From the IMG/VR virus record IMGVR_UViG_3300048551_000139, positions 1 to 25,345 of that record: a DNA stretch of 25,345 nt; one strand, 5' to 3'. The notes under the pieces were generated by a model, which saw nothing but the letters and a program-made list of their open reading frames with translations, had not been told where the DNA came from and made no database searches. The position numbers and the translations under genes were made by a program. This DNA comes from a virus. Shown piece after piece: positions 3,222 through 19,884 of this stretch. Within the stretch, counting starts at the first letter, position 1, and every line of letters begins with the position of its first letter.

Positions 3222-3590
3222 ATGAAAACATTTTTAGATTACATGACAAATGCCAATGCAACTGAAGCAGAACTTCAAATATTGCAAGAATCTTTACAGT
3301 CGGAGTGGACTGAATCTTTAGAAGAAAAAGTAGATTCTGCTCTTGAAGAATTTGTATCAGAATACAAGCAGGAAGATGGAACATACGATGTTGAAAGACT
3401 TAATAATGAAATGACTAATGAAGGTATATTAGGTTCTATTTTTGGAGGTCTTACTGGGTTTGCTTTAGGAAAAACAATTGGTAAAGCAGTTGCTAAAGTC
3501 TTAGGTATTGAAAAAGGAATAATGTATGAAATGCTAACCTCTCGATTAGTTGGTGCCGCTCTTGGTGCTGCAATCGGTAAAAAACTATAA
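3222..3590 (+). CDS. Small glycine-zipper protein with capsid-targeting-like N-terminus
   Basis: This 122-residue protein has three parts. Residues 1-15 (MKTFLDYMTNANATE) resemble the T4 capsid-targeting sequence MKTYQEFIAE. Residues 16-63 are acidic and helical. Residues 68-122 form a Gly/Ala-rich hydrophobic region (GSIFGGLTGFALGKTIGK, later VGAALGAAIGKKL) with small-xxx-small spacing, as in membrane-inserting glycine zippers. The acidic and hydrophobic parts are separated by MTNE|GILG at residues 64-71, a plausible prohead-protease site. I infer that it is packaged in the head and cleaved, freeing a membrane-active peptide. An ordinary small membrane protein is the alternative. It lies 12 bases after the tail gene and 2 bases before the resolvase gene. 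Confidence 0.55.
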   Translation: MKTFLDYMTNANATEAELQILQESLQSEWTESLEEKVDSALEEFVSEYKQEDGTYDVERLNNEMTNEGILGSIFGGLTGFALGKTIGKAVAKVLGIEKGIMYEMLTSRLVGAALGAAIGKKL

Positions 3591-4320: not shown

Positions 4321-4506
4321 ATGGAAAAGAAAAAGATAGCTTCGGCACACTTATTAAAATTAAAAGAGATATTGTTTGATATGATATCACAAAACAGAAT
4401 ATCAGAAGCAGAAGCTCTAAATATTTTAAGAAAAGCAGGATTAATAAAGCTTCCAGAGGCTGATGGATGGATGGATGAAGAAGGATCCACATATAGAAAA
4501 TTATAG
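4321..4506 (+). CDS. Small hypothetical protein upstream of gp32
   Basis: This 61-residue product has a Lys-rich N-terminus, then two predicted helices (LLKLKEILFDMISQN and SEAEALNILRKAGLI) joined by an Arg-Ile-Ser turn, and an acidic C-terminal tail with DGWMDEEGS. The two-helix layout could be a small DNA- or protein-binding unit, but I do not recognise the family. The start is preceded by an A/T-only tract (aataaaataataaaata) that matches the initiation style of neighbouring genes, and codon usage is phage-like, so I consider it real. In T4 the small late-transcription coactivator gp33 lies near gp32. No gp33 signature, such as a hydrophobic clamp-binding C-terminus, is visible here, so I do not assign it. 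Confidence 0.55.
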   Translation: MEKKKIASAHLLKLKEILFDMISQNRISEAEALNILRKAGLIKLPEADGWMDEEGSTYRKL

Positions 4507-4535
4507 AGATATATATTTTAAGATTATATTTTGAA

Positions 4536-4581
4536 ACCTTTTAAAGATTCATTGTATAATTAATGAAAGTTTTTTAAAGGT
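4536..4581 (+). promoter_or_regulatory. Extended imperfect hairpin in the gp32 leader
   Basis: ACCTTT at 4536-4541 pairs with AAAGGT at 4576-4581. The inner arm TTCATT (4548-4553) pairs with AATGAA (4562-4567) around an 8-base loop. The following bases create a second option, the palindrome AAGGTACCTT at 4577-4586, so two alternative folds compete. It lies 66 bases before the gp32 start. In T4 a pseudoknot upstream of gene 32 nucleates gp32 binding to its own mRNA; an equivalent role here is inference. Confidence 0.4.
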
Positions 4582-4597
4582 ACCTTAACGAACAATC

Positions 4598-4646
4598 AAA
4601 GATTTAAAGATTATTAACAAAATTAACGAAATTAAAGATTTAAAGA
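4598..4646 (+). repeat. A/U-rich direct repeats before the gp32 start (possible autogenous operator)
   Basis: The 13-mer AAAGATTTAAAGA occurs exactly at 4598-4610 and 4634-4646. Between the copies, ATTAACAAA, ATTAACGAA and ATTAAAGAT follow one another in a 9-base period (4613-4639). The stretch has almost no self-complementarity and ends one base before the gp32 ATG. An unstructured, periodic A/U-rich leader is the type of sequence to which T4 gp32 binds cooperatively to repress its own translation. Confidence 0.45.
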
Positions 4647-4647
4647 A

Positions 4648-5556
4648 ATGGCAGAATTTGACATTTTCAACTTAAGCGTAAGCGATGTTGAAACACACGA
4701 CACACAAAGCACTAAAACGGATGTACTATACAAGCCGAGTGCAGATCAAGGAAAAGATGGAACTTATAAAGCACTAGTACGCTTTGTTCCTAATCCAGCA
4801 AACCCAAGAAATTCACTAGTTAAAAAATACGTACACTGGTTAACAGATGCATCAGGTAATGGTCGATTAATTGACTCACCTAGTTCTGTTGGCGAAAGTT
4901 GTCCAATTGCAGAAGCTTTTTTCAAACTAAGAAATAGCGATTCAGCAGTTGACCGTAAGATGAGTGAAAAATTAAAGAGACGTGAGCAATACTACTCTCT
5001 TATTAAAGTAATTAAAGACCCTCAAAATCCAGATCTAGAAGGACAATACTTAGTGTATAAGTTTGGTTATAAGATTAAGGAAAAGATTGACGAGGAGTTA
5101 AAGCCAGCTTTTGGTGAACCAACTCAAGTATTTGACCTTTTCGAAGGTAAAAACTTTGAATTGATTATAACAAGACAAGGTGAATATAACAATTACGATA
5201 AATCTAAATTCTCTGCAAGCACTTCAGCAATCACAGTAAATGGAGAAGCTGCTGAAAGAACAAAAGAGACAATGTCAGTTATTAAAACTGAATTAGATGC
5301 AGCACCATCATTAGAGCCTTACGAGTATAAAGTATGGGATGGAGATGCAAGAGATTTCGTAAACGGAATTTTACGTCAATACTTAAATCCAGGAGGTTCA
5401 ATTGATGCAGTGGTTTCAAAACCTAAAGCTGCGCCAAAGGCATCTAAGCCAGTTGAAGTATCTACACCAGTTGTAGAAACTACTTCAACAACAGAATCAA
5501 CAAGTGCAGATAGTAGTGATGATCTAGATTCTTTCTTGAATGACCTCGACATCTAA
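4648..5556 (+). CDS. 32: Single-stranded DNA-binding protein, gp32-like
   Basis: This 302-residue protein (T4 gp32: 301) has the family layout. A short N-terminal cooperativity region is followed by the OB-fold core with VRFVPNPANPRNS (T4: 'VIRFLPSKNDEQAP'), SVGESCPIAEAFFKL (T4: 'GDYDSCPVCQYISKN'), KVIKDPQNPDLEGQ (T4: 'LVVKDPAAPENEG') and NNYDKSKF (T4: 'SNYDESKF'). A Pro/Ala/Thr/Ser linker and an acidic tail, DDLDSFLNDLDI, follow. It would coat single-stranded DNA and recruit replication and recombination proteins through the tail. The T4 zinc ligands are mostly absent: only Cys85 and His63 remain in that region. The gene has its own leader with a hairpin and repeats, and its last 17 bases overlap the primase start in another frame. 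Confidence 0.9.
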   Translation: MAEFDIFNLSVSDVETHDTQSTKTDVLYKPSADQGKDGTYKALVRFVPNPANPRNSLVKKYVHWLTDASGNGRLIDSPSSVGESCPIAEAFFKLRNSDSAVDRKMSEKLKRREQYYSLIKVIKDPQNPDLEGQYLVYKFGYKIKEKIDEELKPAFGEPTQVFDLFEGKNFELIITRQGEYNNYDKSKFSASTSAITVNGEAAERTKETMSVIKTELDAAPSLEPYEYKVWDGDARDFVNGILRQYLNPGGSIDAVVSKPKAAPKASKPVEVSTPVVETTSTTESTSADSSDDLDSFLNDLDI

Positions 5557-6667
5557 GATAGACGAAACATTAAAGCAAAAAATTAGAAGCTTAGTAAAGC
5601 AAGTTGTAGTAAACGAGCACACTGACCCTAATAAAAGAATGCTTAAGGAAATGCCAGGCCGTTTGAGCCTGGCATGCCCTTATTGTGGAGACTCTACAAC
5701 AGATACACATAAGAAGAGAGGTAATATATATTGGGATAGTTTACAGTTTCATTGTTTTAACTGCTCTGCCCATGGAGATGTTTATTCTTTATTAAAAGAT
5801 CATCACGTAGGATTCAAAGATAGAGAAGATTCTATTGCTATTATAGATTTCATACAGGAACATAGAATACAAGCAAACACTGTAGAAGTATTAGAACACG
5901 ACATCTTTAAAAAGATATACGACTTAGCCCCTACTCGAGAAGAATTAAGTAAAACATTTGGATATAAAGAAATAGAAGTAGGAGATCCTGGTTATTTTTA
6001 CTTAAGAGGGAGAATGTTATCTCATAAGCTTGAAAACTTTATGTATTCTCCTAAAGATAAAAGAATGGTTGTTCTTAATTTAGGCCCTAATAAAAAAGTT
6101 ATAGGGTTTCAAACAAGAGCTCTTTCCAAATATAGAAACGCAAGATACCTAACGTATGATATTGAAAAAATATATCAAGAAATGAATAAAGATCTTGGAG
6201 TATCTGAAACTGAATTAATAAGTCTTAAAAAAATATCAACACTCTTTGGTATTTTAAGAGTTGATTTACAAAGAACAGTCACTATGTTTGAAGGTCCTAT
6301 TGACGCAATGTTTATGTCAAATAGTATTGGATTAGCAACAGCAGGTAGATCAACAGAAGAGTTTGATGAAATACCAACAATACGTTATATGTTTGATAAC
6401 GACAAAACAGGTAAAGAGAAGATGATGCAAAAACTTCGAAGAGGTAAAGAAATATTTATGTGGGGTAAATTTCTTAATGATACCAAGCTAGATTTAAAAT
6501 ACGATAAATGGCTAGACGGAGTTAATAAAGAAAATAGAGATAAATATCCTAAAGAATTAGGTGATTTAAATGATCTAGTACGAGTAGCATACTATTTAAA
6601 AGACGATTGTCTTAAAAATCTGTCTGAATATTTTAGTAATTCTAAACTAGATGCATTTTACCTATGA
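5540..6667 (+). CDS. 61: DNA primase, gp61-like (CHC2-type zinc finger plus TOPRIM)
   Basis: This 375-residue primase (T4 gp61: 342) has an N-terminal zinc-binding module with Cys46-x2-Cys49 (ACPYCGD), His71, Cys72 and Cys75 (FHCFNCSAHGD). A TOPRIM catalytic domain follows, with Glu251 in FEGPIDAMF and the Asp286-x-Asp288 pair in FDNDKTGKE. The segment IGFQTRALSKYRNARYLTYD is also typical of DnaG-type catalytic cores. It synthesises RNA primers for lagging-strand replication, in T4 together with the gp41 helicase. The start overlaps the end of gp32 by 17 bases, so expression is probably translationally coupled. A GC-rich perfect inverted repeat lies inside the zinc-finger coding region. Confidence 0.88.
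   Translation: MTSTSKIDETLKQKIRSLVKQVVVNEHTDPNKRMLKEMPGRLSLACPYCGDSTTDTHKKRGNIYWDSLQFHCFNCSAHGDVYSLLKDHHVGFKDREDSIAIIDFIQEHRIQANTVEVLEHDIFKKIYDLAPTREELSKTFGYKEIEVGDPGYFYLRGRMLSHKLENFMYSPKDKRMVVLNLGPNKKVIGFQTRALSKYRNARYLTYDIEKIYQEMNKDLGVSETELISLKKISTLFGILRVDLQRTVTMFEGPIDAMFMSNSIGLATAGRSTEEFDEIPTIRYMFDNDKTGKEKMMQKLRRGKEIFMWGKFLNDTKLDLKYDKWLDGVNKENRDKYPKELGDLNDLVRVAYYLKDDCLKNLSEYFSNSKLDAFYL
5651..5675 (+). other. Perfect 9-bp GC-rich hairpin within the primase gene
   Basis: ATGCCAGGC (5651-5659) is exactly complementary to GCCTGGCAT (5667-5675) around the 7-base loop CGTTTGA. Six of nine pairs are G-C, which stands out in this AT-rich region. It lies about 110 bases into the primase gene, just after gp32. 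No T-run follows, so it is not a classical terminator; an mRNA-stabilising or attenuating element is possible. Confidence 0.5.
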
Positions 6668-7343: not shown

Positions 7344-8852
7344 TTGGTACTAACATTAACAGATGATAATCAATTTCTACGAATTGATGATGCTACTGAA
7401 CTTGAGTTAGAACAGATTACAATCTCCCTTACAAAAAGAATTGAAAGTTGGAGATTTAATCCGTTAGTAAAACGAGGAGTGTGGGATGGTTATGTCTCTT
7501 ATATTAAAGATGACAAATGGATTCCAGCTGGACTATGGAGGCATGTTATACAAATTTGTAAAGATTATAAGATAGAGATTCAAATGAACGGAATAAAACG
7601 TTTAATTGATCCAGATATTAACGCAGAAGCATTTGAAGAATGGGCTCTTAATTTCTTTAAAGGTGCTGAGATAACTCCAAGAGATTATCAAATAGAAACA
7701 GCATATAACATACTTAAATTTAGAAAGTGTTTAGCGGAGTTGGCAACATCAGCTGGTAAAACTTTAATTAGTTTTATGACTGTTGCATATATGCTAGAAA
7801 AGAAAAAAGCTCAAAAAATATTATTTATAGTACCTAACGTATCTTTAGTTGTACAGGCCCATGAAGATTTTCATGAATATAATTACATGAATAAAGTTAA
7901 TTTAAAGATTCAACAGATATATTCAGGTAAAAAAATTAAAAGTAATAAAAATATAATTATTGGTACATATCAATCTTTAGTAAAAAAAGATAAAGAATAT
8001 TTTAGTCAATTTGACGCTGTTTTAGTAGATGAAACTCACAAAGCAAAAAGCGCATCTATAAAAACAATATTACAAAAATGTACTAACGCAAAATATAAAT
8101 TTGGTCTTTCAGGAACAATTCCTAAAGATGGATCTCTTGATAAATTAACTCTTATGAGCCAGACTGGTCCAGTTATTAGTGAAGTCAAAGCGGCTTTTCT
8201 ACAAAAACAAGGACATATTGCAAAATGTTTGGTTAAAGTAATTCAAATGAACTATGCAACAGAAAATCAAAGACAAGCGTTTCAAGAGCTTGCGCAGAAC
8301 AAATATGATAGAAAGGATGTTTTCCAACTTGAACAAAATTTTATTATTAATAACGAAGCACGTCTTGATTTTATCTCAAGCGTTATTTCCAGAGTACCCA
8401 GGAATAGCCTTGTCCTTTTTCACAGGATTGAACACGGTAAAAAATTATATGAAAAACTTAGACAAGAAAGCGATAAAAGAGTTTTTTATGTGGATGGCGG
8501 AACCAATACTGATATTAGAGAAGAATATAAAAAGAAAATGGAAGCCGGTGAAGAAGTTGTCATCGTTGCGTCCTATGGTACTTTCTCAACAGGGATCTCG
8601 ATTAAAAAAATACACAACATATTCTTTACGGAATCTTTTAAAAGTGAAGTGATTATCAGGCAATCAATAGGACGTGGTTTAAGGCAACATGAATCAAAGG
8701 ACAAGGTTTTAATAATCGACTTTGTTGACGACATTAGAACGCAAGAGTGGGATAATTATCTATATAAACATGGTAAAGCTCGCCAGGCAATATATAAACA
8801 AGAAAAGTTTGATTATAATATTAAAATAGTCAATTTTGAAGGAGATATATAA
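7344..8852 (+). CDS. uvsW: ATP-dependent DNA helicase, UvsW-like (TTG start or upstream indel)
   Basis: This 502-residue superfamily 2 helicase matches T4 UvsW across its length. The N-terminal double-strand-binding region has WRFNPLVKRGVWDGYV (T4: 'YRFNPRFRYGNWDGRI'). Walker A is ATSAGKT (residues 134-140), the DEAH-type box is DETH (229-232), motif III lies in FGLSGTIP, motif V in VASYGTFSTGIS and motif VI in QSIGRGLRQ (440-448). UvsW remodels D-loops, R-loops and stalled forks, and in T4 helps switch from origin- to recombination-dependent replication. The frame is closed by TGA at 7338-7340, so the only available start near the expected N-terminus is TTG at 7344. An ATG at 7337 is one base out of frame and would read MKLVLTLTDD if one A were removed. 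Confidence 0.9.
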   Translation: MVLTLTDDNQFLRIDDATELELEQITISLTKRIESWRFNPLVKRGVWDGYVSYIKDDKWIPAGLWRHVIQICKDYKIEIQMNGIKRLIDPDINAEAFEEWALNFFKGAEITPRDYQIETAYNILKFRKCLAELATSAGKTLISFMTVAYMLEKKKAQKILFIVPNVSLVVQAHEDFHEYNYMNKVNLKIQQIYSGKKIKSNKNIIIGTYQSLVKKDKEYFSQFDAVLVDETHKAKSASIKTILQKCTNAKYKFGLSGTIPKDGSLDKLTLMSQTGPVISEVKAAFLQKQGHIAKCLVKVIQMNYATENQRQAFQELAQNKYDRKDVFQLEQNFIINNEARLDFISSVISRVPRNSLVLFHRIEHGKKLYEKLRQESDKRVFYVDGGTNTDIREEYKKKMEAGEEVVIVASYGTFSTGISIKKIHNIFFTESFKSEVIIRQSIGRGLRQHESKDKVLIIDFVDDIRTQEWDNYLYKHGKARQAIYKQEKFDYNIKIVNFEGDI

Positions 8853-8887
8853 GATATACGTAAATAAAATAAATAAAATTTATAAAA

Positions 8888-11308
8888 ATGGCAAAAATGA
8901 ATAAAATCAGTTCTTTTCAAACTTTTTCTGAAGTAAGAGAGGCTGAAAATGCTGATAAACTACAACAAGAAAATCAAGCTAAAAGATTAGAGCTAACAGA
9001 AAGAATAGGTAAAATATTAGATGAAATGGAAATAACATCTTTTGAAGACTTAGACGAAGAAGTTAGAGATCAATTAGTAGAAAAAACGTTCGGATTAGTT
9101 AAAGAAGGAGATAAAACAAAAGTTTCTAAAAAAGAAATTAAAATGCATCTGGATATGTTCCAAGCAGGAGACATCGATGGTAATGATTTATCACAAGCTA
9201 TTTCTGCAATTATATTCGGAGAAGTAAAAGGACCGGGTATGGAGTCTAAAGATTCTGAACAGGTTTCAGAAGCAACTGTTGTTATGGACGCAATAAACCC
9301 TGATGATAAAGATTTCTTAAAATTCTTAAAAAAGAATAAAGTTAAAGTAATTGACACTGTAAAATCAGGCCCAAGTGGACATCCTGAAATTACAATGCAA
9401 GGAAAAAGAAAAGATCTTGAAGCAGTATTAGCTGACGGTGAATTAGGATGGGATGATCCTGGTTTAGCAGAATTTATTGAAGAATCAATAAACATTTCAG
9501 AAGCAGTAATAGTTACTGGTAGAAGAGACGCTAAAAAAGTTTTAACAGCATACACTAAATTTTTCCAAAAATATCCAGCATTAGCTGATAGGAGATTTGC
9601 AGGTTTACATTTAGGAGCAATCAAATCCTTAATGGTTTCTGCATTAACAGATGCTAATTTTCATAGAGAATCAGCAGCGTGCGGAAAGTCTATTAAAGGA
9701 GCAAAGCTTCAACCTGTTTTTATTAAGCCAATGGAATTAAATAAAACAGAAATTAAAATACCTGTTGGTAAAGTAGCATCTATTTTAGATGATAATGCAT
9801 CTCTTATTTCTGGTGCAGCCGGCTTTTCTGGTTTAGGTATTGCTGAAGGAACAGCATTATACTTAGATTCTCTTAAATATGTTAAAGAAGCAGAAGCAGT
9901 TATTGCATGTTTTAATTCTACGTTTGAAAGTGAAGTTACTGACGTAACAGAAGGTAATGCATTTTTAGGAGCTAGAGCTAAGGCTATTGAAGAAGATGCT
10001 GAAGAATTTGAATTTAACGGTAAAAAATATCCAGTAATTAAAGAATCAGAAGAAGTTACTGAATCAGCCGAACCAAAGTGTAATAATAAAAAAGGACATT
10101 TATATAAGCAAATTGATAAGGACGGAACGGTAGAATGCGTGCACTGTGGTCTAAGAAATTCATTAAGCGAATCAGAGGTTAATGAAGCTAAATCTTTTAA
10201 AAATACTGAAGATTTTGAAGCATTTTTAAAGGAAATCGATGCTATGCCAGAAAGAGCAGTTAGAAAGATAATGGGTAAAGAATATATCGATACTCCTGGT
10301 TTTTATGAAGATGAAAAGGATGATTATGATGATGTAATTGACTTCATGATTTCAAACATGGGTGCAGATATTTATCACCAATTAGAACAGTGGTGGGAAA
10401 ACAATGTTCAAGAATCAGCAGTTACTGAAGCTAAATTTGTAAAAGATTTTGATAAAGATGTTTTAGATGCTGAAACCAAAGCAGATATAACAACTTACTA
10501 CCCTTCTGCTAAATTCTTTATAGGTAAATCAACCCACTTCTTCGGAGAATTAGATAAAAATTTATTTTTTAAAGCATATTATAAAGATTATGTAAAGAAG
10601 GCTGGTGGTAAAATCGATGGTGATTTTAAAATTGTAATGATATATTCTGAAAAAGGTAGAAATTTTGTACCTTTATTTACTAGAGAAGTTACTGAATCAG
10701 TGGTTACTGAAGCTAAAATTAATTCTGACGAAGAGTTTAAAGAATATGCTACAACTGTTTTACAAAAAGCGTTTGGTGAAGATTATGACGAAGCAAAAGC
10801 AAACGAAGTTATTGATGGTATTTTAGCAAAAGTTGACGGAGATTACGGCGCTGCTGTAGGAATGTTAACATCTTCATTAGGAGAATCAGTAGTTACTGAA
10901 AAAACATATAATAAAAAGTCTTTAATGAAAGCAATGAAAGCCGATGATGGTATGATACAATTAGGCAATGGTCAAGAATATGTTATCTACGCTTACGGTA
11001 ATGGTAATGATGATAACGACAATATGTGGGGAGATAAATCAATCTTTGCGTTAGACCAAGACGGCGAAGAGCATGAAATTGAATATTCTGATATTGTAAG
11101 TTATAATGAAGCTAACGCTGATGGAACTATTTCAGATGATGAAGACGAAAAAAGAGAAGAACTTTTAAATAGAGTTAAAGAACAAATGGAAGAGCTATTA
11201 GCATCTGCTGAATTTGATGCTAAAGAAATTGGTGGTTCTTTTAGATCTCCTGGTATTATGTTTGATATTAGAAAACAACTTGATAAGCAAGTTAAAAAGT
11301 TTAAATAA
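8888..11308 (+). CDS. Modular polyprotein with repeated protease-like sites; probable internal head protein
   Basis: This 806-residue protein has no single recognised family. It consists of 40-150-residue modules separated by repeated sites of the form hydrophobic-x-Glu|small: Glu128 (QVSE|A), Glu205 (NISE|A), Glu355 (DVTE|G), Glu392 (EVTE|S), Glu433 (EVNE|A), Glu514 (AVTE|A), Glu608 (VVTE|A) and Glu671 (VVTE|K). These resemble the (Leu/Ile)-x-Glu sites cut by the T4 prohead protease gp21. The N-terminus (ISSFQTFSE) resembles a capsid-targeting peptide. Module 393-433 is a tiny zinc-ribbon candidate (Cys398, His404, Cys417, Cys420), and module 609-671 is a compact helical unit ending GDYGAAVGMLTSSLG. 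It overlaps no neighbour and is followed by a strong terminator. Cleavage and packaging are inference from motif repetition. Confidence 0.72.
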   Translation: MAKMNKISSFQTFSEVREAENADKLQQENQAKRLELTERIGKILDEMEITSFEDLDEEVRDQLVEKTFGLVKEGDKTKVSKKEIKMHLDMFQAGDIDGNDLSQAISAIIFGEVKGPGMESKDSEQVSEATVVMDAINPDDKDFLKFLKKNKVKVIDTVKSGPSGHPEITMQGKRKDLEAVLADGELGWDDPGLAEFIEESINISEAVIVTGRRDAKKVLTAYTKFFQKYPALADRRFAGLHLGAIKSLMVSALTDANFHRESAACGKSIKGAKLQPVFIKPMELNKTEIKIPVGKVASILDDNASLISGAAGFSGLGIAEGTALYLDSLKYVKEAEAVIACFNSTFESEVTDVTEGNAFLGARAKAIEEDAEEFEFNGKKYPVIKESEEVTESAEPKCNNKKGHLYKQIDKDGTVECVHCGLRNSLSESEVNEAKSFKNTEDFEAFLKEIDAMPERAVRKIMGKEYIDTPGFYEDEKDDYDDVIDFMISNMGADIYHQLEQWWENNVQESAVTEAKFVKDFDKDVLDAETKADITTYYPSAKFFIGKSTHFFGELDKNLFFKAYYKDYVKKAGGKIDGDFKIVMIYSEKGRNFVPLFTREVTESVVTEAKINSDEEFKEYATTVLQKAFGEDYDEAKANEVIDGILAKVDGDYGAAVGMLTSSLGESVVTEKTYNKKSLMKAMKADDGMIQLGNGQEYVIYAYGNGNDDNDNMWGDKSIFALDQDGEEHEIEYSDIVSYNEANADGTISDDEDEKREELLNRVKEQMEELLASAEFDAKEIGGSFRSPGIMFDIRKQLDKQVKKFK
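10412..10906 (+). repeat. Dispersed 24-base repeats encoding the ES-x-VTEAK linker
   Basis: Copies at 10412-10435 and 10694-10717 are GAATCAGyrGTTACTGAAGCTAAA and differ at only two of 24 bases. A third copy at 10883-10906 matches through GTTACTGAA and then diverges. A degenerate relative occurs near 10042-10066. They mark module boundaries of the polyprotein and could mediate recombination that shuffles modules. Confidence 0.7.
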
Positions 11309-11320
11309 AAATAGAAAAAA

Positions 11321-11354
11321 AGATGACCTGGATTTTTCCGGGTCAAATCTTTTT
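11321..11354 (+). terminator. Intrinsic terminator after the polyprotein gene
   Basis: GACCTGG (11325-11331) pairs with CCGGGTC (11338-11344) with one G-U pair and the loop ATTTTT. The stem can extend through AGAT/ATCT past a two-base bulge and is followed by a T-run at 11350-11354. It begins 13 bases after the stop codon. Confidence 0.8.
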
Positions 11355-11355
11355 A

Positions 11356-11370
11356 TTATATTAGTAGTAT
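11356..11370 (+). promoter_or_regulatory. TTATATTAGTAGTAT element (putative promoter)
   Basis: The same 15-mer occurs at 21094-21108. In both places it directly follows an intrinsic terminator and precedes a new gene, which is the expected position of a phage promoter. Here it runs into the start codon (ATG at 11369), so either the transcript is nearly leaderless or the element acts at the translational level. Confidence 0.45.
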
Positions 11371-11671
11371 GAAGAAAGCAAAATTATATGAAGAGTTTAT
11401 CAACGAAGAAATCTATTTAACATATAGTGAAATCGTAGGTTATCAATTTGATAAGTTTTTAGAATCATATTTTAAACTAAATAAAGATAACAAAACAGTT
11501 TACGATAAAAAAGAAGATTTTACGTATGGTTTTAGAAAAGGATCTAAAACTGCACATTGGAAATATGATCACGATAATTTCGAATTACACCACAGTGAAA
11601 AAGAATTTCATGTCTTAGGTCTTATAAATTTTTATAAACAAGCATCAAAGGGACATCCCTGGTCTAAATAA
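11369..11671 (+). CDS. Small hypothetical protein with capsid-targeting-like N-terminus
   Basis: This 100-residue protein begins MKKAKLYEEFINEE, close in form to the T4 capsid-targeting sequence MKTYQEFIAE, with a plausible cut after INE (Glu13). The remainder is polar and aromatic with many Lys, His, Asp and Phe residues (FELHHSEKEFHVLGLINFY). No membrane segment or known motif is visible. It is the first gene after a terminator and starts the unit that contains the ligase-like and modular proteins, so I infer a head-packaged protein. The biochemical function is unknown. Confidence 0.6.
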   Translation: MKKAKLYEEFINEEIYLTYSEIVGYQFDKFLESYFKLNKDNKTVYDKKEDFTYGFRKGSKTAHWKYDHDNFELHHSEKEFHVLGLINFYKQASKGHPWSK

Positions 11672-11681
11672 AACATACGCA

Positions 11682-12965
11682 ATGAAAATATTATCATTTA
11701 AAGATTTCTTAATAGAAAGAGAAAATAAAGAAGTATTAGACTCTAAATTAATTTTAGAAGGTGGGGCAGCAGGTCACATGTCACATCCATTTGATGAAAA
11801 AGATTTGACATTTGCAGATTTTAAAAAGATAGTAACTGCTGGTCTTCAAGGTGAATTAAACTTTGAGGAAGAAGCAACTGAAAAAACGGATGGACAAAAT
11901 GTATTTGCAACAGTTCAAGATGGAGAAGTAAAATTTGCCAGAAATAAAACTGAATTAGCAAATCCAATGGACTTGGCTACTTTTAAGAATAAGTTTGAAG
12001 GACATCCAAGTAAATTAGTACAAGATACTTTTCAATTTGCTGCAGAAGATTTAGCAAACTCATTAAATAAATTATCCCCTAAAGATTTAGAAGTTTTTGA
12101 TAATGGTAAAAACTGGATGAACATGGAGTTAATTTACTCTAAGAATCCAAACGTTATCTACTATGACCGCGATGTTATTCAATTTCATGGTATAAAGAAA
12201 ACTGATGGTGAAGGTAATACTATTGGAGAAGATAACAAACCAGCAAGATCAATTGCGAAAGCAATGCAAGATCTTAAAATTAATGTTGGTAAAACATTTA
12301 CAGTTATCCCACCTCAAATTATTAAATTAGGTAAAGATTTAGAATTTGATAAAAATCAATCTAAATTTATAAAACAAATAGAAGCGTTAAGAGATCGTTA
12401 TAAATTAACAGACGCTGATGAAGTTTCTAGATATCATGAAATGTGGTGGAGAGAAACAATAGATACAAATTTCCCTGATTTACAACAAGACTATAAAGAA
12501 GGTTTATTATTAAGATGGGCTTATGGAAATAAGAAGTCTTTAAATATGAGAAGTCTTGCAAAGGAAATAGGAAAAGATGAAGCAGCTTCTGTTAAGAAAT
12601 TCGACAAAGAAGATGTTAAAAAGAAATATAAAGAAAACATTAGACCTTTTGAAGATTTATTCTTAGAACTAGGATCTATAATTCTTAAAAATGCTTCTAA
12701 TTTTGTAGCAGCAAATCCAGACAAGGAAATGCAAAGATTACATAATCAAATTAGAAGTGAATCAGAAAAAATTAAAAAAGGCGGAGGAGAAGCTCAAATT
12801 GCAAAAGTAGAAGCTGAACTTGCTAGGTTAGAAAGAATTGGTGGTGTAGAATCTATTATACCAACTGAAGGAATAGTCTTTGTATATAAAGGAAAAACAA
12901 TGAAATTAACAGGTACGTTTGCAGCCATTAATCAATTAATGGGAATTATAAAGTACGGAAGATAA
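11682..12965 (+). CDS. Ligase-like covalent nucleotidyltransferase, probable head-packaged protein
   Basis: This 427-residue protein shows the ordered motifs of the ATP-dependent DNA/RNA ligase superfamily. Motif I is EKTDGQNVF with candidate AMP-accepting Lys68, and the NKTEL segment near residue 90 fits motif Ia. Glu149 lies in NMELIY (motif III). PTEGIVF has Glu396 (motif IV) and MKLTG has Lys408 (motif V). A long helical, Lys/Glu-rich insert (about residues 250-385) separates motifs III and IV. Before the domain, the N-terminal segment MKILSFKDFLIE resembles a capsid-targeting peptide, and LILE|GGAAG (Glu26) fits a prohead-protease site. GGAAGHMSHPFDE follows at once. A distinct conserved phage family with a ligase-like core is most likely; the substrate is unknown. 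The next gene starts 10 bases downstream. Confidence 0.6.
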   Translation: MKILSFKDFLIERENKEVLDSKLILEGGAAGHMSHPFDEKDLTFADFKKIVTAGLQGELNFEEEATEKTDGQNVFATVQDGEVKFARNKTELANPMDLATFKNKFEGHPSKLVQDTFQFAAEDLANSLNKLSPKDLEVFDNGKNWMNMELIYSKNPNVIYYDRDVIQFHGIKKTDGEGNTIGEDNKPARSIAKAMQDLKINVGKTFTVIPPQIIKLGKDLEFDKNQSKFIKQIEALRDRYKLTDADEVSRYHEMWWRETIDTNFPDLQQDYKEGLLLRWAYGNKKSLNMRSLAKEIGKDEAASVKKFDKEDVKKKYKENIRPFEDLFLELGSIILKNASNFVAANPDKEMQRLHNQIRSESEKIKKGGGEAQIAKVEAELARLERIGGVESIIPTEGIVFVYKGKTMKLTGTFAAINQLMGIIKYGR

Positions 12966-12975
12966 ATAATATAAT

Positions 12976-14859
12976 ATGGCACTTAAAAAATTAAGAGAAC
13001 ATTTTCAAGAAACTAATATTAATGAGTTTCATAGATTGTTAAAAAATAGAGTAATGGTTGTTGAAAAAATTTCAGCACCATCTTTTTATGTTAGAAGAAA
13101 TGAAGAAAAATTTGAATTTTATAAATCTTCAAAATCTAAACCTCTAACAATAATAGATAGAACTATTATGTCTCTTTACGAAGTTGCCATTAAACATATA
13201 CAAAGTTTAAATCCTAAAAGTAAAAAACAATTACCAGATAATTATAGATTTGGTTTTGAATATTTACCAGAAGAAAAGGTTTCTGAATATGTATACACTA
13301 AAATACCTAAAAATACTTTAATATTAACGCACATCCACCAACTAGGTGAAAACGGAAAAGTAAAAAAGACAATTATAGATCCTTTAATTATAAAAAAATG
13401 GGCTACCGTATTAGAAGTACAACAACAAGAAGTTATATTTGACGGAACTTTAGATTCAACTCAAAAAGAAAAGCTTATTAATTTATTAGAAATGAATGAT
13501 AAAGCTTTTTCTGAGGCATTTGACTACGATATAGAAACGGATAAATTAGTTTCTTTCACAAAAGAAATATACAAGATATTTAATATTAATTCAACATCAA
13601 GCGTTCTTCAAGAGGATTTAGAATCTGAAATAGATGGTTTAGTTTTAAATTTTGCTGAAGGTAAAAAAATACAATCTTATAAATTAGAAGATTTTATTAG
13701 AAAACCTTTAAATGAAATTAGAGAAGGTTCTCATACATATCAAATAGCAATCGCAGATATATTAGAATATTTTGTTAATTATAATTTTTCAGAAACAAAT
13801 TTAGTTGAAGAAAATGCAGAAAAAAGATATATAGAATTAATCTCAGCAGCATTTAACAAATACGTTAATAAAAACGCAACAAGATATATTGGAGTTAATT
13901 TCCAAAATGCAGAATTTTCTTCTTCTAAATTATTTAATTTAAATACAACATTCATTAAAAACGAAAAAACATTAACACATGTTTCAAATGAAGTTTTATC
14001 AAGTTTATTTAAAATAACATTAGGTACTTTTAGAAAGCATAAAACGAAAGCAACAGATATATTAAATGATGATATGATATCTCAATTAAATAATATAGTT
14101 GATAAAATCAATGATGTTGTTTTTCTAGAAAAAGCAGACGAAAATTCTATATATAATTATAAGAATTTTATGATGCATAACAATATAAAAAGCGAAGTAA
14201 CTTTAAATGAAGCGCTAACTGTTAAGCACGCTGAGCAAGGTAAAGAATTAGTAAATATGTTCGTTGGTAGATTTCAGCCATTCACATTAGGACACGCCAA
14301 AGTTTTAGAAGCAATTCACAAACAAAATGGATATCCAGTTATTGTATTTTTAATTAAAGCAAAATCTAAAAAGAAAGGTGACGAATTTAGAAAACCTTAT
14401 TCTGAAGATTTACAAATTAAAATGTTTAAACAAGTTCAAAAGCAATATAAATTCTTAAAAGAAATTATAGTTCTTGATAGAGGTGCAATTGATTATATGT
14501 TTAACGAATTAAGACCTAAATACGAGCCAGTACTTTGGGGAACAGGATCAGACAGAATGACTTCTTATGGATATCAAGTAAATAATGATTCTTATAGAGA
14601 TCAATTAAATGTAAGATCCGATTTTGGTTTATTTGAAATACCAAGAACAGATAATAATATTTCAGCAACACAAGTAAGAAACGCAATGTTAGACGGTGAT
14701 GAATCTTTATTTAAAAAGACTACCCCAAAGGCAATTCATAAAATGTATGATGTTTTAAAGTCTGAACTTGAAAAATCTATGGAGATGGTTGCAGCTTCTA
14801 AAGTTGTATCAGAATCCGTTATGACATTTCAAGAATATATGAATAAATTAAAATCATAA
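12976..14859 (+). CDS. Ligase-like domain fused to NMN-adenylyltransferase-like domain
   Basis: This 627-residue protein has two recognisable parts. Residues 1-245 look like a divergent ligase-type nucleotidyltransferase: VEKISAPSFYV (Lys31, motif I position), FGFEYL (Glu95, motif III), LILTHI (116-120, motif IIIa), IDGLVLNF (219-226, motif IV) and YKLED (Lys236, motif V). Motif I lacks the usual KxDG glycine. Residues 428-610 form a Rossmann-type adenylyltransferase with MFVGRFQPFTLGHAK (GRFQPF and an xGH at 439-440) and ISATQVR (562-568), as in NadM/NadR-type NMN adenylyltransferases. TLNE|ALTV at Glu412 could separate the halves, and VVSE|SVMTFQEYMNKLKS forms the C-terminus. A head-packaged bifunctional enzyme is my inference. 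Activity of the N-terminal domain is uncertain. Confidence 0.68.
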   Translation: MALKKLREHFQETNINEFHRLLKNRVMVVEKISAPSFYVRRNEEKFEFYKSSKSKPLTIIDRTIMSLYEVAIKHIQSLNPKSKKQLPDNYRFGFEYLPEEKVSEYVYTKIPKNTLILTHIHQLGENGKVKKTIIDPLIIKKWATVLEVQQQEVIFDGTLDSTQKEKLINLLEMNDKAFSEAFDYDIETDKLVSFTKEIYKIFNINSTSSVLQEDLESEIDGLVLNFAEGKKIQSYKLEDFIRKPLNEIREGSHTYQIAIADILEYFVNYNFSETNLVEENAEKRYIELISAAFNKYVNKNATRYIGVNFQNAEFSSSKLFNLNTTFIKNEKTLTHVSNEVLSSLFKITLGTFRKHKTKATDILNDDMISQLNNIVDKINDVVFLEKADENSIYNYKNFMMHNNIKSEVTLNEALTVKHAEQGKELVNMFVGRFQPFTLGHAKVLEAIHKQNGYPVIVFLIKAKSKKKGDEFRKPYSEDLQIKMFKQVQKQYKFLKEIIVLDRGAIDYMFNELRPKYEPVLWGTGSDRMTSYGYQVNNDSYRDQLNVRSDFGLFEIPRTDNNISATQVRNAMLDGDESLFKKTTPKAIHKMYDVLKSELEKSMEMVAASKVVSESVMTFQEYMNKLKS

Positions 14860-14906: not shown

Positions 14907-17117
14907 ATGGATAAATCACACTTTAATCAAGATGATAGAGTAGATGAAGGGAAAATAACAATAAAAAGACGTTATACTGAAAACTACCCTGCAAAAACTG
15001 TTGGTAAATCAGCAAAAATAAGAAACAAAATGTTGGAAGCAATTTCGGACGGGGCTATTACCCAAGAAGAATTTGATTCTATCATAGCAGAATTATCATC
15101 TGATTCAAAAAGATGGTTATCTCGTAATTCTAGGTTATTTAATATTACAGAGGCTGGAATAACATTAACAGGGTTAGGTAGAAAGATTTTATCTCAAATT
15201 ACAGTAAATGAAAAAACAGAAAAGAATCCAGAAATATGGGTTCCTGGAAAATTTGATAAAGAAGTTTCTAAATTATCAGCTGATGAATTAACACTAGACA
15301 ATATAAAAAAATTATCAAAAAAACATAGAGTATTTTTACAAGATGCAATAGCGTATGTTGAATATAGCTTCGATGTTGATATTGTAGAAAATAAAGAAAA
15401 TAATATGAAAACAAAATTAGTATTTGAATCTTTCGGAGATTTTGTAAACTCATTAGATAAAAATAATGAAGAATTAAACGAAGGCACTAGAGGCCAATTC
15501 GGAATGATTGATAAAAAAGGAAATATACAGTCAGTATATATGCATTATGATTCATATCCTGAAAACATTCTACCATTAATAAAAAGAGGTTACGGAAACT
15601 CTAAAAAAGTACAAGCAGTTATTGATAGAGGAGATACTTCTGGATTAGATAAAACAGTTGATACTATGAATTTCTATGAAGATGGTAGAAAGCCAACTTC
15701 AGGTAAAAAAGCAGACATTGCACGTTATATTAAAAAAGCAGCTGATGATGGTGGAGCAGAATACATCTATTTATATGATGAGTCTGATAAAACTTGGTAC
15801 ATGGTTGATGTTTATGGAGACATGCAATTAGTTCCTGCATTTGAATCAGTAATTAATGAAGCTGTAAACGCAACTGCTTATATTAAAGCTGGTAAATTAG
15901 GTTATAATGATCAATTCTTAGCAAAGAGATCTTTATCATGGACATTATCAGTTGACTTAGGTCTAAAAGCATCTGATGAATTTGTCGGACCATGGTTAGG
16001 ATTCGATTATGTATCATTATATGCTATTGGTAAAAAAGGAGGAACAATTATTGATGATGCCTTAACTGGTAAATATACTTATGACGAATTAAAAGCAGCA
16101 GCAGCTGATTTTTTAGGTATTAAAGAATCAGAAGAAGCTTTAGGTGAATCAGAAGATACTGAACTTAATGAAGCATTTAAATCTTCTAAATTAAGAAATT
16201 TAGTAAATATGGATCAATCACAACGTGATGGATATGGTAAAGCAAGAAATTTAGCAGCTGCTATTTATGGATTATCAAAACTAAAATTAGATAAAATTGA
16301 AGATTCTTCTTTAATTGATGTAGATCCTAAAGAAGCTTATAAAAAATATCAAAACAATAGAGACTATTTAGTTTTTTATATAGTAGACAACGAAAAAGAA
16401 AATGAATACAGCAAAGGTTCATTTACATCATTAATAAAACCAGGTATTTTAGCTTTAACCAGAGGAAAAGACTTTTTATCAGTTCAATATGTTCAATCTA
16501 GAAATAGATCAGTTGATCGTACTTTAGGAAAAGATGATGGTAATGCAATTGGTGGTAATAAAAGATATTCTGGATATGATGCATCGGGTATTTCTTCAGT
16601 TGTAAGAGCTTCTAAATTAGCAGACAGAGCAATTGTAATTGATATTGTTAATGGTGGCGAAACTTCAAAAGAAGAAAGAAACGAAAGAGCAAGAGCAAAA
16701 GAAGGAGCTTTAGCTTTTAAATCTGACGCAGACTTTAAGAAAGCTAACAAGGCAAGATACCAAGAAATCTTATCAACTAAAGCTTCTAAGTTACCTCTTG
16801 ATAAAATGGTTAATGACGCTATTGATGATTTAGGAAATCAAATTAAAGATGGTCTTAAGGCTAATAAAAAGACAGAATACGGAGAGCTTAAAATTGGAGA
16901 AAATTCTAAAGGTAGAGCAGTTAAAATCACAGATGCTTCAAACCACATGGGTAGAATCTTATCTGATTATCAAAGATATGTTGAATACATGGTAAAAGCA
17001 GAAGAAGAAAAAGGTAGAGATTATTCATCAGGATATTACGAAAAGAATTCAAAACAATACGCTAAAGATATTAAAGATGCAGTTAAAAAAATACCTACGT
17101 TCGATTACGCTTGGTAA
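14907..17117 (+). CDS. Modular, probably protease-processed head protein with an internal targeting-like segment
   Basis: This 736-residue protein is divided by candidate prohead-protease sites: Glu82 (NITE|A), Glu192 (ELNE|G), Glu318 (VINE|A) and Glu422 (ELNE|A). Residue 167 is a Met that begins MKTKLVFESFGDFVNSL, a capsid-targeting-like peptide, preceded in DNA by an A-rich start-like tract (ATG at 15405). The protein therefore looks like an in-frame fusion of a 166-residue protein with a second head protein, or has an internal start. Module 193-318 contains SVYMHYDSYPENILPLI, recalling the phage-borne 'HYDGYPE' family of unknown function. Module 423-736 is Lys/Arg-rich and helical towards its end. 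No enzymatic motif is evident. The next gene begins one base after the stop. Confidence 0.65.
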   Translation: MDKSHFNQDDRVDEGKITIKRRYTENYPAKTVGKSAKIRNKMLEAISDGAITQEEFDSIIAELSSDSKRWLSRNSRLFNITEAGITLTGLGRKILSQITVNEKTEKNPEIWVPGKFDKEVSKLSADELTLDNIKKLSKKHRVFLQDAIAYVEYSFDVDIVENKENNMKTKLVFESFGDFVNSLDKNNEELNEGTRGQFGMIDKKGNIQSVYMHYDSYPENILPLIKRGYGNSKKVQAVIDRGDTSGLDKTVDTMNFYEDGRKPTSGKKADIARYIKKAADDGGAEYIYLYDESDKTWYMVDVYGDMQLVPAFESVINEAVNATAYIKAGKLGYNDQFLAKRSLSWTLSVDLGLKASDEFVGPWLGFDYVSLYAIGKKGGTIIDDALTGKYTYDELKAAAADFLGIKESEEALGESEDTELNEAFKSSKLRNLVNMDQSQRDGYGKARNLAAAIYGLSKLKLDKIEDSSLIDVDPKEAYKKYQNNRDYLVFYIVDNEKENEYSKGSFTSLIKPGILALTRGKDFLSVQYVQSRNRSVDRTLGKDDGNAIGGNKRYSGYDASGISSVVRASKLADRAIVIDIVNGGETSKEERNERARAKEGALAFKSDADFKKANKARYQEILSTKASKLPLDKMVNDAIDDLGNQIKDGLKANKKTEYGELKIGENSKGRAVKITDASNHMGRILSDYQRYVEYMVKAEEEKGRDYSSGYYEKNSKQYAKDIKDAVKKIPTFDYAW

Positions 17118-17118
17118 T

Positions 17119-18600
17119 ATGAAAACAATGTATACATCATTTAGCGAATTTTCAAGAGGGATTAAAGAAAACATTTCACCAGAAAGTATTGGAGGAATGG
17201 GAGATGTTATATTACCGAATGGTGATGAACTAGGTTCTGGCGATATTCCTTCTGAAGAAGATGATGAAAATAAAGAAAAAATAAATACAAAATCTATGGA
17301 TTTTAATAGTTTTATAAACAAATCAACGGTTAGTAAATTAGTCATTGAGAAATCAGCAACAGATACTCTAGCGGATGATGTTTCTGGAGAATTATATATT
17401 GCAAAACTTAAAGGCAAGTCAGCTACTATTAAAGCAACGACTACGACAAAGACATGGGATGATGGAGTCCCGGTATTAAAGTATTTAGCAAGAGGTAAAA
17501 GTAAATCAATGTCTTTTGATTTATATCAAAGACCTTTTCAAGTGGTACACGACTATGCACATGGCTGGTGGTACTTCACAGATGGTGGAAAATGGTACGG
17601 ATTGCACGTAAGCGACGGTTATAGTGAAGCTGCTGATTTACCATTCGATATGCAAATTCCAGAAAACAAAATACAAGAAGGTGTTATGTCTGACATTCAC
17701 CAAATGATAGGTAATCATAAAACTTTTGATTCATTTCAAAAAGAATTCTTTAAAGAATATGGAGATAATAAAGCTATGAAAAAAACCAAAGACTTTTTAG
17801 AATGGCTAGAAGCTTTATATTCAGATTCACAATATGCAGTATCTGAGGCAAGACCAGGTACTTACACGTACCAAATGGATAGTGAAGGAAATACTAGAAA
17901 AGTATTACCGCCATATTATGGTAATTCAGAACTTCATGATAAATCAAAAGAACTATTTAAAAAACCATGGAAAAAGCTTAGTGATAAACAACAAGATGAA
18001 GTTTTAGCAGCCTTTGAAATAGTTGAAGCAAGATCAATTGCAAAAATACAAAAAGAATATGGAAGTGTAGTAACTGATATGAAAGATCTTGTTAAAGATT
18101 ATGTAAAAATGTCAGATGATAATTCTGAAAAAGCTAAGACAAGACAATTACTTATAGATTTAACTTCTAAGAAAAAATCATTAATGTCAGAATTAGATGA
18201 CGCAGTAGGTATCAAAGATTTAAATATTGAATTAGCAGAATCAGTAAATGAATCAATGAGTTCTTACTATTTCACGAGTCCTAGCGAATACGGTCAATTT
18301 GCAAATGAAGCACCTGCAAAGGGTGAAACTAAATATTTAGTAATGGCTACTAATAAAGCAAACTTTAATGGTCAAGAAATTAGACTAGAAGGTGGAGTTA
18401 GATTTGGTTCAACCTCTAAAAAAGAAATTTTAGGAGTTTTTGATAAAGAATCAGAAGCTTTAACATTTTATAAATCAGCTATGAAAAAACCAGAAGGAAC
18501 ATTTGTTTCTTTCTCAATGGGAACGGTTGTCGGTGAAACTAAATTTAGATCGCAATATACTGAAATTCAAGGATATTTAGCAACTGCAAAGGTAAAATAA
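17119..18600 (+). CDS. Modular, probably head-packaged protein
   Basis: I choose the ATG at 17119 (493 residues). The longer frame from 17077 would overlap the previous gene by 41 bases, whereas 17119 yields MKTMYTSFSEFSRG, a capsid-targeting-like N-terminus, directly after the stop. Candidate protease sites are Glu187 (KIQE|G, fitting the T4 Ile-x-Glu rule), Glu243 (AVSE|A) and Glu378 (SVNE|S). The first module has a Trp/Tyr/Gly-rich stretch (YAHGWWYFTDGGKWYG), the third is helical and Lys-rich, and the last (379-493) is a beta-like unit with YLVMATNKANFNGQEIRLEG. No known family is recognised. It ends the cluster, and hairpins plus a terminator follow. Confidence 0.65.
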   Translation: MKTMYTSFSEFSRGIKENISPESIGGMGDVILPNGDELGSGDIPSEEDDENKEKINTKSMDFNSFINKSTVSKLVIEKSATDTLADDVSGELYIAKLKGKSATIKATTTTKTWDDGVPVLKYLARGKSKSMSFDLYQRPFQVVHDYAHGWWYFTDGGKWYGLHVSDGYSEAADLPFDMQIPENKIQEGVMSDIHQMIGNHKTFDSFQKEFFKEYGDNKAMKKTKDFLEWLEALYSDSQYAVSEARPGTYTYQMDSEGNTRKVLPPYYGNSELHDKSKELFKKPWKKLSDKQQDEVLAAFEIVEARSIAKIQKEYGSVVTDMKDLVKDYVKMSDDNSEKAKTRQLLIDLTSKKKSLMSELDDAVGIKDLNIELAESVNESMSSYYFTSPSEYGQFANEAPAKGETKYLVMATNKANFNGQEIRLEGGVRFGSTSKKEILGVFDKESEALTFYKSAMKKPEGTFVSFSMGTVVGETKFRSQYTEIQGYLATAKVK

Positions 18601-18698: not shown

Positions 18699-19076
18699 AT
18701 GAAAATAGCTTTAATAGCGCACGACAACAAAAAAGCTGACATGGTCGCTTTTGTATCAAAAAGATTACCTTTCTTTAATAGAAAGGATATTACTATTGTA
18801 ACCACTGGAACAACGGGAAAACACGTTATGCATGCTGGGATAGAAGACGTTATTAAAGTAAATTCAGGGCCACTTGGAGGAGATGCTCAGATAGCAGCAA
18901 TGGTTACTGAAGGTGAAATAGATTTAGTTATCTTTTTAAGAGATCCATTAGGCAAACATCCACATGATGTTGATATCAGTATGTTAATGCGATTATGCGA
19001 CGTTCATGATATACCTCTCGCAACAAATTATAGAACAGCAAGCTACTTAGTTAAATATTTAAAATCTTGTAAATAA
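18699..19076 (+). CDS. mgsA: Methylglyoxal synthase (short form)
   Basis: This 125-residue protein aligns with MgsA, which converts dihydroxyacetone phosphate to methylglyoxal and phosphate. The phosphate-binding elements are ALIAHDNKK (His8, Lys11/12; E. coli 'ALVAHDHCK') and TTGTTGK (36-41). The catalytic Asp62 lies in SGPLGGDAQ (E. coli Asp71 in 'SGPMGGDQQ'), followed by FLRDPLGKHPHDVD with Asp82, His89 and Asp92, matching E. coli Asp91, His98 and Asp101. It ends soon after ATNYRTASYLV and lacks the roughly 20-residue C-terminal extension of E. coli MgsA (152 residues). It is the first gene of a terminator-bounded unit. All active-site residues appear present, so it is probably functional; it may bypass lower glycolysis in infected cells. 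Confidence 0.88.
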   Translation: MKIALIAHDNKKADMVAFVSKRLPFFNRKDITIVTTGTTGKHVMHAGIEDVIKVNSGPLGGDAQIAAMVTEGEIDLVIFLRDPLGKHPHDVDISMLMRLCDVHDIPLATNYRTASYLVKYLKSCK

Positions 19077-19312
19077 TGGAAATGTTTTTATTTAAACCGG
19101 ATAATTATAAAGAATGGTCAGATAGCGCTATTAAAAAAATAATAAAAGTTGTAGATTCATGTATCAGTGATGACCATTTAGACTCTGCTAAACAAATGAT
19201 AGATCATTTTATTTTAATGCTTGCCTTAAATGAAACTTACTCAGAAGAAACTGTACAAGATATATCAAAACAATTATATTTATATTTAAATATTAAAAAA
19301 TCTAATATATGA
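19076..19312 (+). CDS. Small helical hypothetical protein
   Basis: This 78-residue protein is almost wholly helical by eye, with alternating hydrophobic and charged positions (AIKKIIKVVDSCISDDHLDSAKQMIDHFILMLAL). No signal peptide or known motif is visible. It is tightly coupled on both sides: the start overlaps the last base of the methylglyoxal synthase stop, and its own stop overlaps the next start (ATGA). This position implies co-expression with the metabolic genes. It could be a small structural or regulatory partner, but no function can be assigned. Confidence 0.6.
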   Translation: MEMFLFKPDNYKEWSDSAIKKIIKVVDSCISDDHLDSAKQMIDHFILMLALNETYSEETVQDISKQLYLYLNIKKSNI

Positions 19313-19884
19313 GTTCTAAAACAAAAATAGGATTTACAGCAGGAAACTTTGATCTATTACACCCTGGCTATATTTATACATTTGAAACTGCAAAACAACA
19401 CTGTGATCACTTCATAGTTTTTCTACAAATTGATCCATCTGAAACAAGATTCACGAAATATAAACCAGTAATACCTTTATATGAAAGATATAAAACTTTA
19501 ATGGCAATACAATACGTTGATGAAGTTATAACATATCAAACAGAAGAAGATCTAATTAAATTAATAAAATTCTATAAACCTGATGTTAGAATATTAGGAG
19601 AAGACTATATTGGTAAAGGATTTACAGGAGATGATTTACCCCCTAAGGTAATTTATACAACGCGATCACATAACTGGTCAACTACTAAACTCAAGGATTT
19701 AATTACAATGCAAACTATTAAGCAAAATCCTGAAATAGTAGATAGAGCTAAGAATGAAAAAGAACAAACGTCTCACCAAAGATTAATGTTAGCAATTAGA
19801 GATCAAATTGCACAACATGCTGAAGGTAATTTAACTGAGGCACAATATAAATCAGCAATTAAAGAATTATTAGAAGAATCATGA
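19309..19884 (+). CDS. Cytidylyltransferase-like nucleotidyltransferase
   Basis: This 191-residue protein has the fold signature of the glycerol-3-phosphate cytidylyltransferase/ADP-heptose synthase superfamily. FTAGNFDLLHPGYIYTFE corresponds to the HxGH loop, and TTRSHNWSTTKLK (117-128) corresponds to the C-terminal Ser-Thr-Thr nucleotide-binding motif (commonly RTxGISTT). The second histidine of HxGH is Tyr21 here (HPGY). A 50-residue helical tail follows the catalytic domain. Such enzymes transfer CMP or AMP to a phosphorylated polyol or sugar. It overlaps the following sugar-nucleotide dehydratase by four bases, so a joint role in making an activated sugar or polyol is plausible. The substrate is unknown, and the Tyr substitution may reduce activity. 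Confidence 0.75.
   Translation: MSSKTKIGFTAGNFDLLHPGYIYTFETAKQHCDHFIVFLQIDPSETRFTKYKPVIPLYERYKTLMAIQYVDEVITYQTEEDLIKLIKFYKPDVRILGEDYIGKGFTGDDLPPKVIYTTRSHNWSTTKLKDLITMQTIKQNPEIVDRAKNEKEQTSHQRLMLAIRDQIAQHAEGNLTEAQYKSAIKELLEES

Follow-up and report, generated by a model that had tools for sequence, protein, structure and literature searches.

Why would a phage carry one long gene that looks like a string of small proteins joined by sites for its own head-building protease? The question was raised by a 25,345-nucleotide stretch of viral DNA (IMG/VR record IMGVR_UViG_3300048551_000139, positions 1 to 25,345; henceforth the window), in which positions 8888-11308 (+) form an open frame of 806 codons. 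A sequence-only reading had proposed that this is a polyprotein cut at eight sites by a protease like T4 gp21, so that one gene delivers several small proteins inside the head. We confirmed these sites, and the analysis of relatives supports this interpretation and extends it to a family of genes at a fixed locus, although cleavage and location in the virion are inferred and not shown.

Sites and modules in the 806-residue frame

All eight proposed sites are present (↓, putative cut): VSE128↓A, ISE205↓A, VTE355↓G, VTE392↓S, VNE433↓A, VTE514↓A, VTE608↓A and VTE671↓K. A strict form of the motif, [VILM][STN]E[AGSK], recovers these eight plus residues 428 and 603, each five residues upstream of one of them, i.e. 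10 sites against 0.89 expected in 500 residue shuffles (p 0.002, the floor of the test). Of the 22 window proteins tested, that at 14907-17117 showed a similar excess (5 against 0.66, p 0.004) and that at 18699-19076 had a single site against 0.03 (p 0.03), while the others were not significant. A ninth junction, YNE741↓A, had been missed by the sequence-only reading, and reads VTE↓A in one relative (locus L005; L numbers denote loci of relatives). The nearly repeated ES-x-VTEAK linker that it described is real at the DNA level, with four copies in register with a 41-nt reference at 10169, 10412, 10694 and 10883 (100, 78, 66 and 66% identity). However, the looser pattern with any residue at P2 also occurs inside modules (e.g. 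residues 65, 73, 320, 334, 588 and 635), so the motif alone does not define the cuts. The gene, its modules (with copy numbers among the relatives described below) and other relevant features of the window are as follows.

8843..8852 (+), AGATATATAA, putative promoter overlapping the uvsW stop codon
8888..11308 (+), the whole polyprotein gene, 806 residues
8888..9271 (+), M0, residues 1-128, N-terminal leader (ISSFQTFSEVRE18↓A, CTS-like) plus helical carrier segment, 83 copies; the first known module in all 83 proteins that have it
9272..9502 (+), M1, residues 129-205, alpha/beta module, perhaps ferredoxin-like (weak evidence), 68 copies
9503..9952 (+), M2, residues 206-355, mainly helical module, 62 copies
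9953..10063 (+), M3, residues 356-392, module of ~30 residues, GNAFxxARxKAI..FEFNGKxYPV, 93 copies in 64 proteins
10064..10186 (+), M4, residues 393-433, small Cys4 module resembling a zinc ribbon (Pfam matches only under their cut-offs), 18 copies
10187..10429 (+), M5, residues 434-514, poorly predicted in the model, 16 copies
10430..10711 (+), M6, residues 515-608, alpha/beta module, 40 copies
10712..10900 (+), M7, residues 609-671, three-helix module, 88 copies
10901..11110 (+), M8, residues 672-741, beta-rich module, 18 copies
11111..11308 (+), M9, residues 742-806, helical module, 6 copies
11369..11671 (+), 100-residue protein beginning MKKAKLYEEFINE↓E, a CTS-like leader resembling those of T4 ipII/ipIII
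14907..17117 (+), second polyprotein-like gene (736 aa), 5 strict sites
17119..18600 (+), third, less certain polyprotein-like gene (2 strict sites against 0.5, p 0.09), in our reading likely starting at the internal Met MKTMYTSFSEFSRGIKE (ORF listed from 17077)

The whole chain had no Pfam or PHROGs family at E<=0.01. Searched one by one, its ten modules gave only marginal matches up to E 1 (the best being phrog_5922, 0.005, for M1), including toxin-named Pfam entries far under their cut-offs that we disregard; remote domains are not excluded. In a collection of phages, neither megablast of bases 1-25000 nor tblastn of the protein gave a match, and the corresponding protein of a relative gave one weak match. 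Sequence searches of the PDB with the chain and with the M6 alignment gave nothing below E 0.08. An AlphaFold2 model was obtained, albeit from a shallow alignment (33 rows) in which a different module of the relatives lies over M1 in some rows. Several modules are predicted to fold with confidence (many blocks with pLDDT 85–95), while stretches under pLDDT 50 are 1-8, 115-126, 386-405, 433-444, 449-484, 503-516, 518-520, 602-607, 665-671 and 740-750. Eight of these ten are at junctions, and low-confidence stretches fall at or next to six of the eight original sites; the blocks holding sites 205 and 355 average 60, and 449-484 lies inside M5. Fold searches of the whole model gave no match at E<=0.001 in BFVD or in the PDB. 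VIA-align rows mainly covered M1 (residues 123-203, Z 5.1-6.4), with the top row (Z 6.9) covering M9, but at such Z values this may be only a common arrangement, and other parts were barely tested. A single-sequence model of a short relative (L133, 209 aa) came out all-helical at mean pLDDT 68.

Module order and junctions among relatives

A scan of IMG/VR with the protein gave 24 loci, one of them in a 91-kb contig (henceforth G001; locus L003) that carries the identical gene over 806 residues, with two partial copies at 100% identity on other records. The possibility that the window alone is odd or chimeric can thus be rejected. From 231 loci and the window we took 1074 ORFs of at least 90 aa after removing contained duplicates, although near-identical orthologues still count separately and many of the sequences are closely related. 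A total of 138 proteins contained at least one module and showed 74 architectures (counting unmatched stretches as a separate symbol). Leaving out 20 that were cut by a locus end, 118 showed 65, and the 80 uncut proteins that begin with M0 (henceforth carriers, 83 in all) showed 48, with M7 as the last known module in 67 of these 80. Carrier lengths run from 195 to 1029 aa. All 83 carriers have more strict sites than expected (404 against 62.7), and the number of sites follows length (r 0.81); the control, 465 ORFs of 300 aa or more without modules, had 405 against 187, part of it from second-polyprotein genes. Two loci depart from a single frame: in L017 the carrier is split into two overlapping frames within a module region (9989-11446 and 11379-12020), which may be real or a sequencing error, and L173 (2214-3140) has two adjacent polyprotein ORFs behind uvsW, perhaps a carrier interrupted by a stop.

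The sequence-only reading had suggested, as a test, that sites should be conserved while module order varies, and this proved to be the case. To define boundaries without using the motif, we took the BLAST ends between proteins that share only part of their length. In the window protein, 14 of 19 such ends lie within 10 residues of a strict site (mean 22% in circular shifts; 11 of 1000 shifts reach the observed value). In all 46 testable proteins the figure was 168 of 522 (14%; 0 of 1000), and in 17 non-redundant ones 51 of 202 (13%; 0 of 1000). Over 261 distinct contexts upstream of seven module families (M2 and M8 shifted one residue to the boundary; M4 left out because its profile starts inside the module; M0 and M9 not included), P1 is Glu in 254 (background at P4-P11, 22%) and P3 is V/I/L/M in 242 (21%), while P2 takes 17 residue types, P1' is A in 169 and G in 66, and the P1 codon is either GAA or GAG. 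Seven of the 261 contexts lack Glu. This fits the L/I-X-E rule of T4 gp21 (PMC9026906), although V is commoner than L/I at P3 here (156 V, 46 I, 36 L).

Module-sized units are also gained or lost between near-identical alleles. Comparing carriers pairwise, we found 20 distinct indels of 28–160 residues with flanks at least 85% identical, the clearest being an 81-residue unit, [ESVVTEA...M5...], absent between alleles with 100% identical flanks. Of the 40 edges, 33 lie within 8 residues of a strict site (6.0 expected, maximum 14 in 2000 shifts). Both edges did so in 14 of 20 indels (0.6 expected, maximum 5), while the other six lack a strict site at one or both edges.

Locus, protease and leader sequences

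In 79 of 83 carriers the gene directly upstream is uvsW (3 other, 1 at a locus edge). As far as the loci reach, the usual order is gp32, primase, UvsY, UvsW, polyprotein, ligase-like, nucleotidyltransferase, second polyprotein. The ligase-like assignment is tentative, resting on a possible KxDG motif; in the window, the 427-aa protein at 11682-12965, whose relatives lie downstream of the polyprotein in many loci, has an EKTDG stretch that may be a ligase/nucleotidyltransferase motif and a leader MKILSFKDFLIE↓, but no Pfam or PHROGs match. The next protein (12976-14859, 627 aa) has a cytidylyltransferase-like domain (PF01467) behind an LNE↓A site and a CTS-like stretch, MTFQEYMNKLKS, at its C-terminus. 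The second polyprotein contains a phrog_1987 module that is a stand-alone gene in other phages, e.g. a separate 114-aa gene beside the portal gene in a Streptococcus phage. Further on, 18699-20816 holds metabolic genes, namely an MGS-like domain protein (PF02142) and, judging only by eye, a second small nucleotidyltransferase-like protein and a nucleotide-sugar epimerase-like protein.

The motif GATATATA lies within 120 nt upstream in 55 of 60 distinct carrier upstreams, compared with 9 of 89 ORFs of G001 (this gene among the 9; one gene counted twice). It is also found before most head genes examined: all five in L032 (7 of 14 ORFs there), four of five in L033 (5 of 14; not the capsid gene) and two of three in L038 (3 of 18; not the portal gene). 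As the motif overlaps the uvsW stop, part of its conservation could be coding; however, the last Ile codon of uvsW is ATA in 48 of 48 cases ending in Asp-Ile, against 28% elsewhere in the same genes, so the DNA itself seems constrained, relatedness aside. Promoter function is inferred. The T4-type late promoter TATAAATA was found in only 4 of 83 carriers and 3 of 89 ORFs.

A gp21-type protease (Peptidase_S77, E 1.3e-13) is encoded on G001, in an ORF that runs off the contig end, and Peptidase_S77 was found on 3 of 21 other contigs searched; capsid protein gp23 was found on 2 of 22. The protease is fused to a long acidic, scaffold-like region, as in Tenacibaculum phage PTm1, whose record names such a fusion. 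Modules of the same kind also occur in other genes of these phages. In L033, at 8173-10539 (-) and 4398-6536 (-), cargo-type modules lie inside other head-region genes: an M3 copy in the gp21/scaffold fusion, and an MHPKLKKAMKAVEKGETVYGENVRF-type module, seen in carriers L017 and L022, in the gene after the capsid protein. On contig G001 itself, a 240-aa acidic protein, MAKLKSFEQFLSE... (L034, 9149-9871), has a CTS-like leader, the upstream motif and an M3-like copy, and is a possible further carrier elsewhere in the same phage.

The leader of the window protein (ISSFQTFSEVRE↓A) is only similar to a capsid-targeting sequence, and a generic [FY]xxF leader is not significantly enriched in G001 (11 of 82 against 6.7; 63 of 1000 shuffles reach it). 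Clearer examples come from relatives in which M1 directly follows a short leader, MINFKQFITE↓A in L218 and MISFNKYIDNVTE↓A in L136; in L017 it follows MKNLKLLGYFE↓. All three start with ATG, and L136 has AGATATATAA just upstream. For comparison, T4 ipII and ipIII begin MKTYQEFIAE↓A, and T4 ipI begins MKTFKEF...STITE↓A, where a cut after residue 19 of 95 gives 76 residues, the published mature length (PMC3012670). In L213 (5525-6689) three consecutive small genes have CTS-like starts (MKRVLKYEEI, MKDMKTFEDWI and MKILESFNQFIGE↓A), the first being a stand-alone M9 module of 90 residues with its own ATG and leader. So modules that are middle or end units here are plain T4-style starts or single genes elsewhere. 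In the 462-kb phage LR756500, whose capsid protein is 49% identical to that of L032, the region behind uvsW holds several separate small genes, several with such leaders, perhaps the unlinked state. In the window, a 122-aa protein (3222-3590) starting MKTFLDYMTNANATE↓A, with a marginal glycine-zipper match and AGATATATA just upstream at 3209, is another possible CTS protein.

Interpretation and comparison with known systems

The best explanation, which we hold with high confidence, is an internal-head (core) polyprotein of a large T4-related phage. Its leader and helical carrier segment would bring the chain into the prohead core, where the gp21-type prohead protease would cut at [V/I/L]-x-E↓[A/G/S/K] in the flexible linkers and release about ten small proteins (roughly 35 to 150 residues) that stay with the DNA and are ejected into the host. 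Packaging, cleavage, ejection and module function are inferred, in the absence of virion proteome or cleavage data. The linkers also mark the units of evolution, modules with one linker each being inserted, lost, duplicated and moved between phages at this locus. By analogy with T4 IPI, counter-defence or host takeover is the likeliest module function. A more far-reaching reading is possible but remains tentative: that the array is a combinatorial arsenal in which each cassette is a small effector plus one ES-x-(V/I)(T/N)-E↓A linker, at once protease cut site in the protein and recombination joint in the DNA, swapped piecemeal between phages so that one gene delivers a changeable cocktail of counter-defence proteins in every virion.

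Among the alternatives, a scaffold or core protein in the style of T4 gp22, chopped into peptides that leave the head and with modules acting as spacers, is unlikely. T4 gp22 is indeed degraded by gp21, and the constant helical ends M0 and M7 look core-like, but these phages already have a long acidic, scaffold-like region fused to gp21, and several modules are confidently folded in the model, diverse, individually conserved and mobile, some of them occurring alone or behind a short leader. Somewhat less likely still is an uncut multidomain structural or polyvalent-type protein whose ES-x-VTEA linkers are only flexible joints and recombination seams. The linker DNA is repeated and indels fall on it, which recombination alone could explain. 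Yet P1 Glu and hydrophobic P3 are kept while P2 varies and the P1 codon changes silently, in accordance with the T4 gp21 rule, and M1 junctions alone show 18 different tripeptides (such as LCE, ICE, LNE, VFE, LFE, INE, IQE and IHE), not copies of one linker. Cleavage by a host or other phage protease, or in the cytoplasm, is very doubtful even without cleavage data, given that gp21 is present, the motif fits it, leaders are CTS-like and the upstream motif is shared with head genes.

Partial full-text searches of open-licence papers showed no paper on a prohead-protease-cut cargo polyprotein in phages, which is not proof of absence (papers consulted included PMC13282480, PMC7824862, PMC10229621 and PMC5694885). 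Such a polyprotein with exchangeable cargo would be a new delivery layout for DNA phages, akin in principle to RNA-virus polyproteins, and would explain how large phages load many small proteins with few leaders. It also suggests a simple rule (leader, cargo, VTE↓A, cargo) for loading several proteins into a T4-type head.

Polyvalent proteins (PMC5512222) likewise have many domains in one chain, mosaic domain order, a proposed co-injection with DNA and an analogy to RNA-virus polyproteins, but there release is proposed by embedded peptidases, while here no peptidase domain was recognised in the chain, although remote domains are not excluded, and the sites fit a separate gp21. In the cleaved head proteins of phiKZ and SPN3US (e.g. 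SPN3US gp53 and gp54), the prohead protease cuts after Glu at several sites in one chain, as inferred here, but 13 of 14 mapped sites remove N-terminal propeptides and one mature protein results, with no module shuffling apparent in what we consulted (PMC10052503). T4 gp22 is a core protein degraded by gp21, as inferred for the polyprotein, but here the scaffold-like region is fused to gp21 and the polyprotein is a separate gene made of mobile modules. The closest resemblance is to the T4 internal head proteins IPI, IPII and IPIII with their capsid-targeting sequence, i.e. a short leader ending in x-E↓A (whose form is matched by that of L218 but only approached by that of the window protein), small and diverse cargo and a gp21-type protease; however, T4 has one gene per cargo, while here up to ten units share one leader and one gene and are interchangeable.
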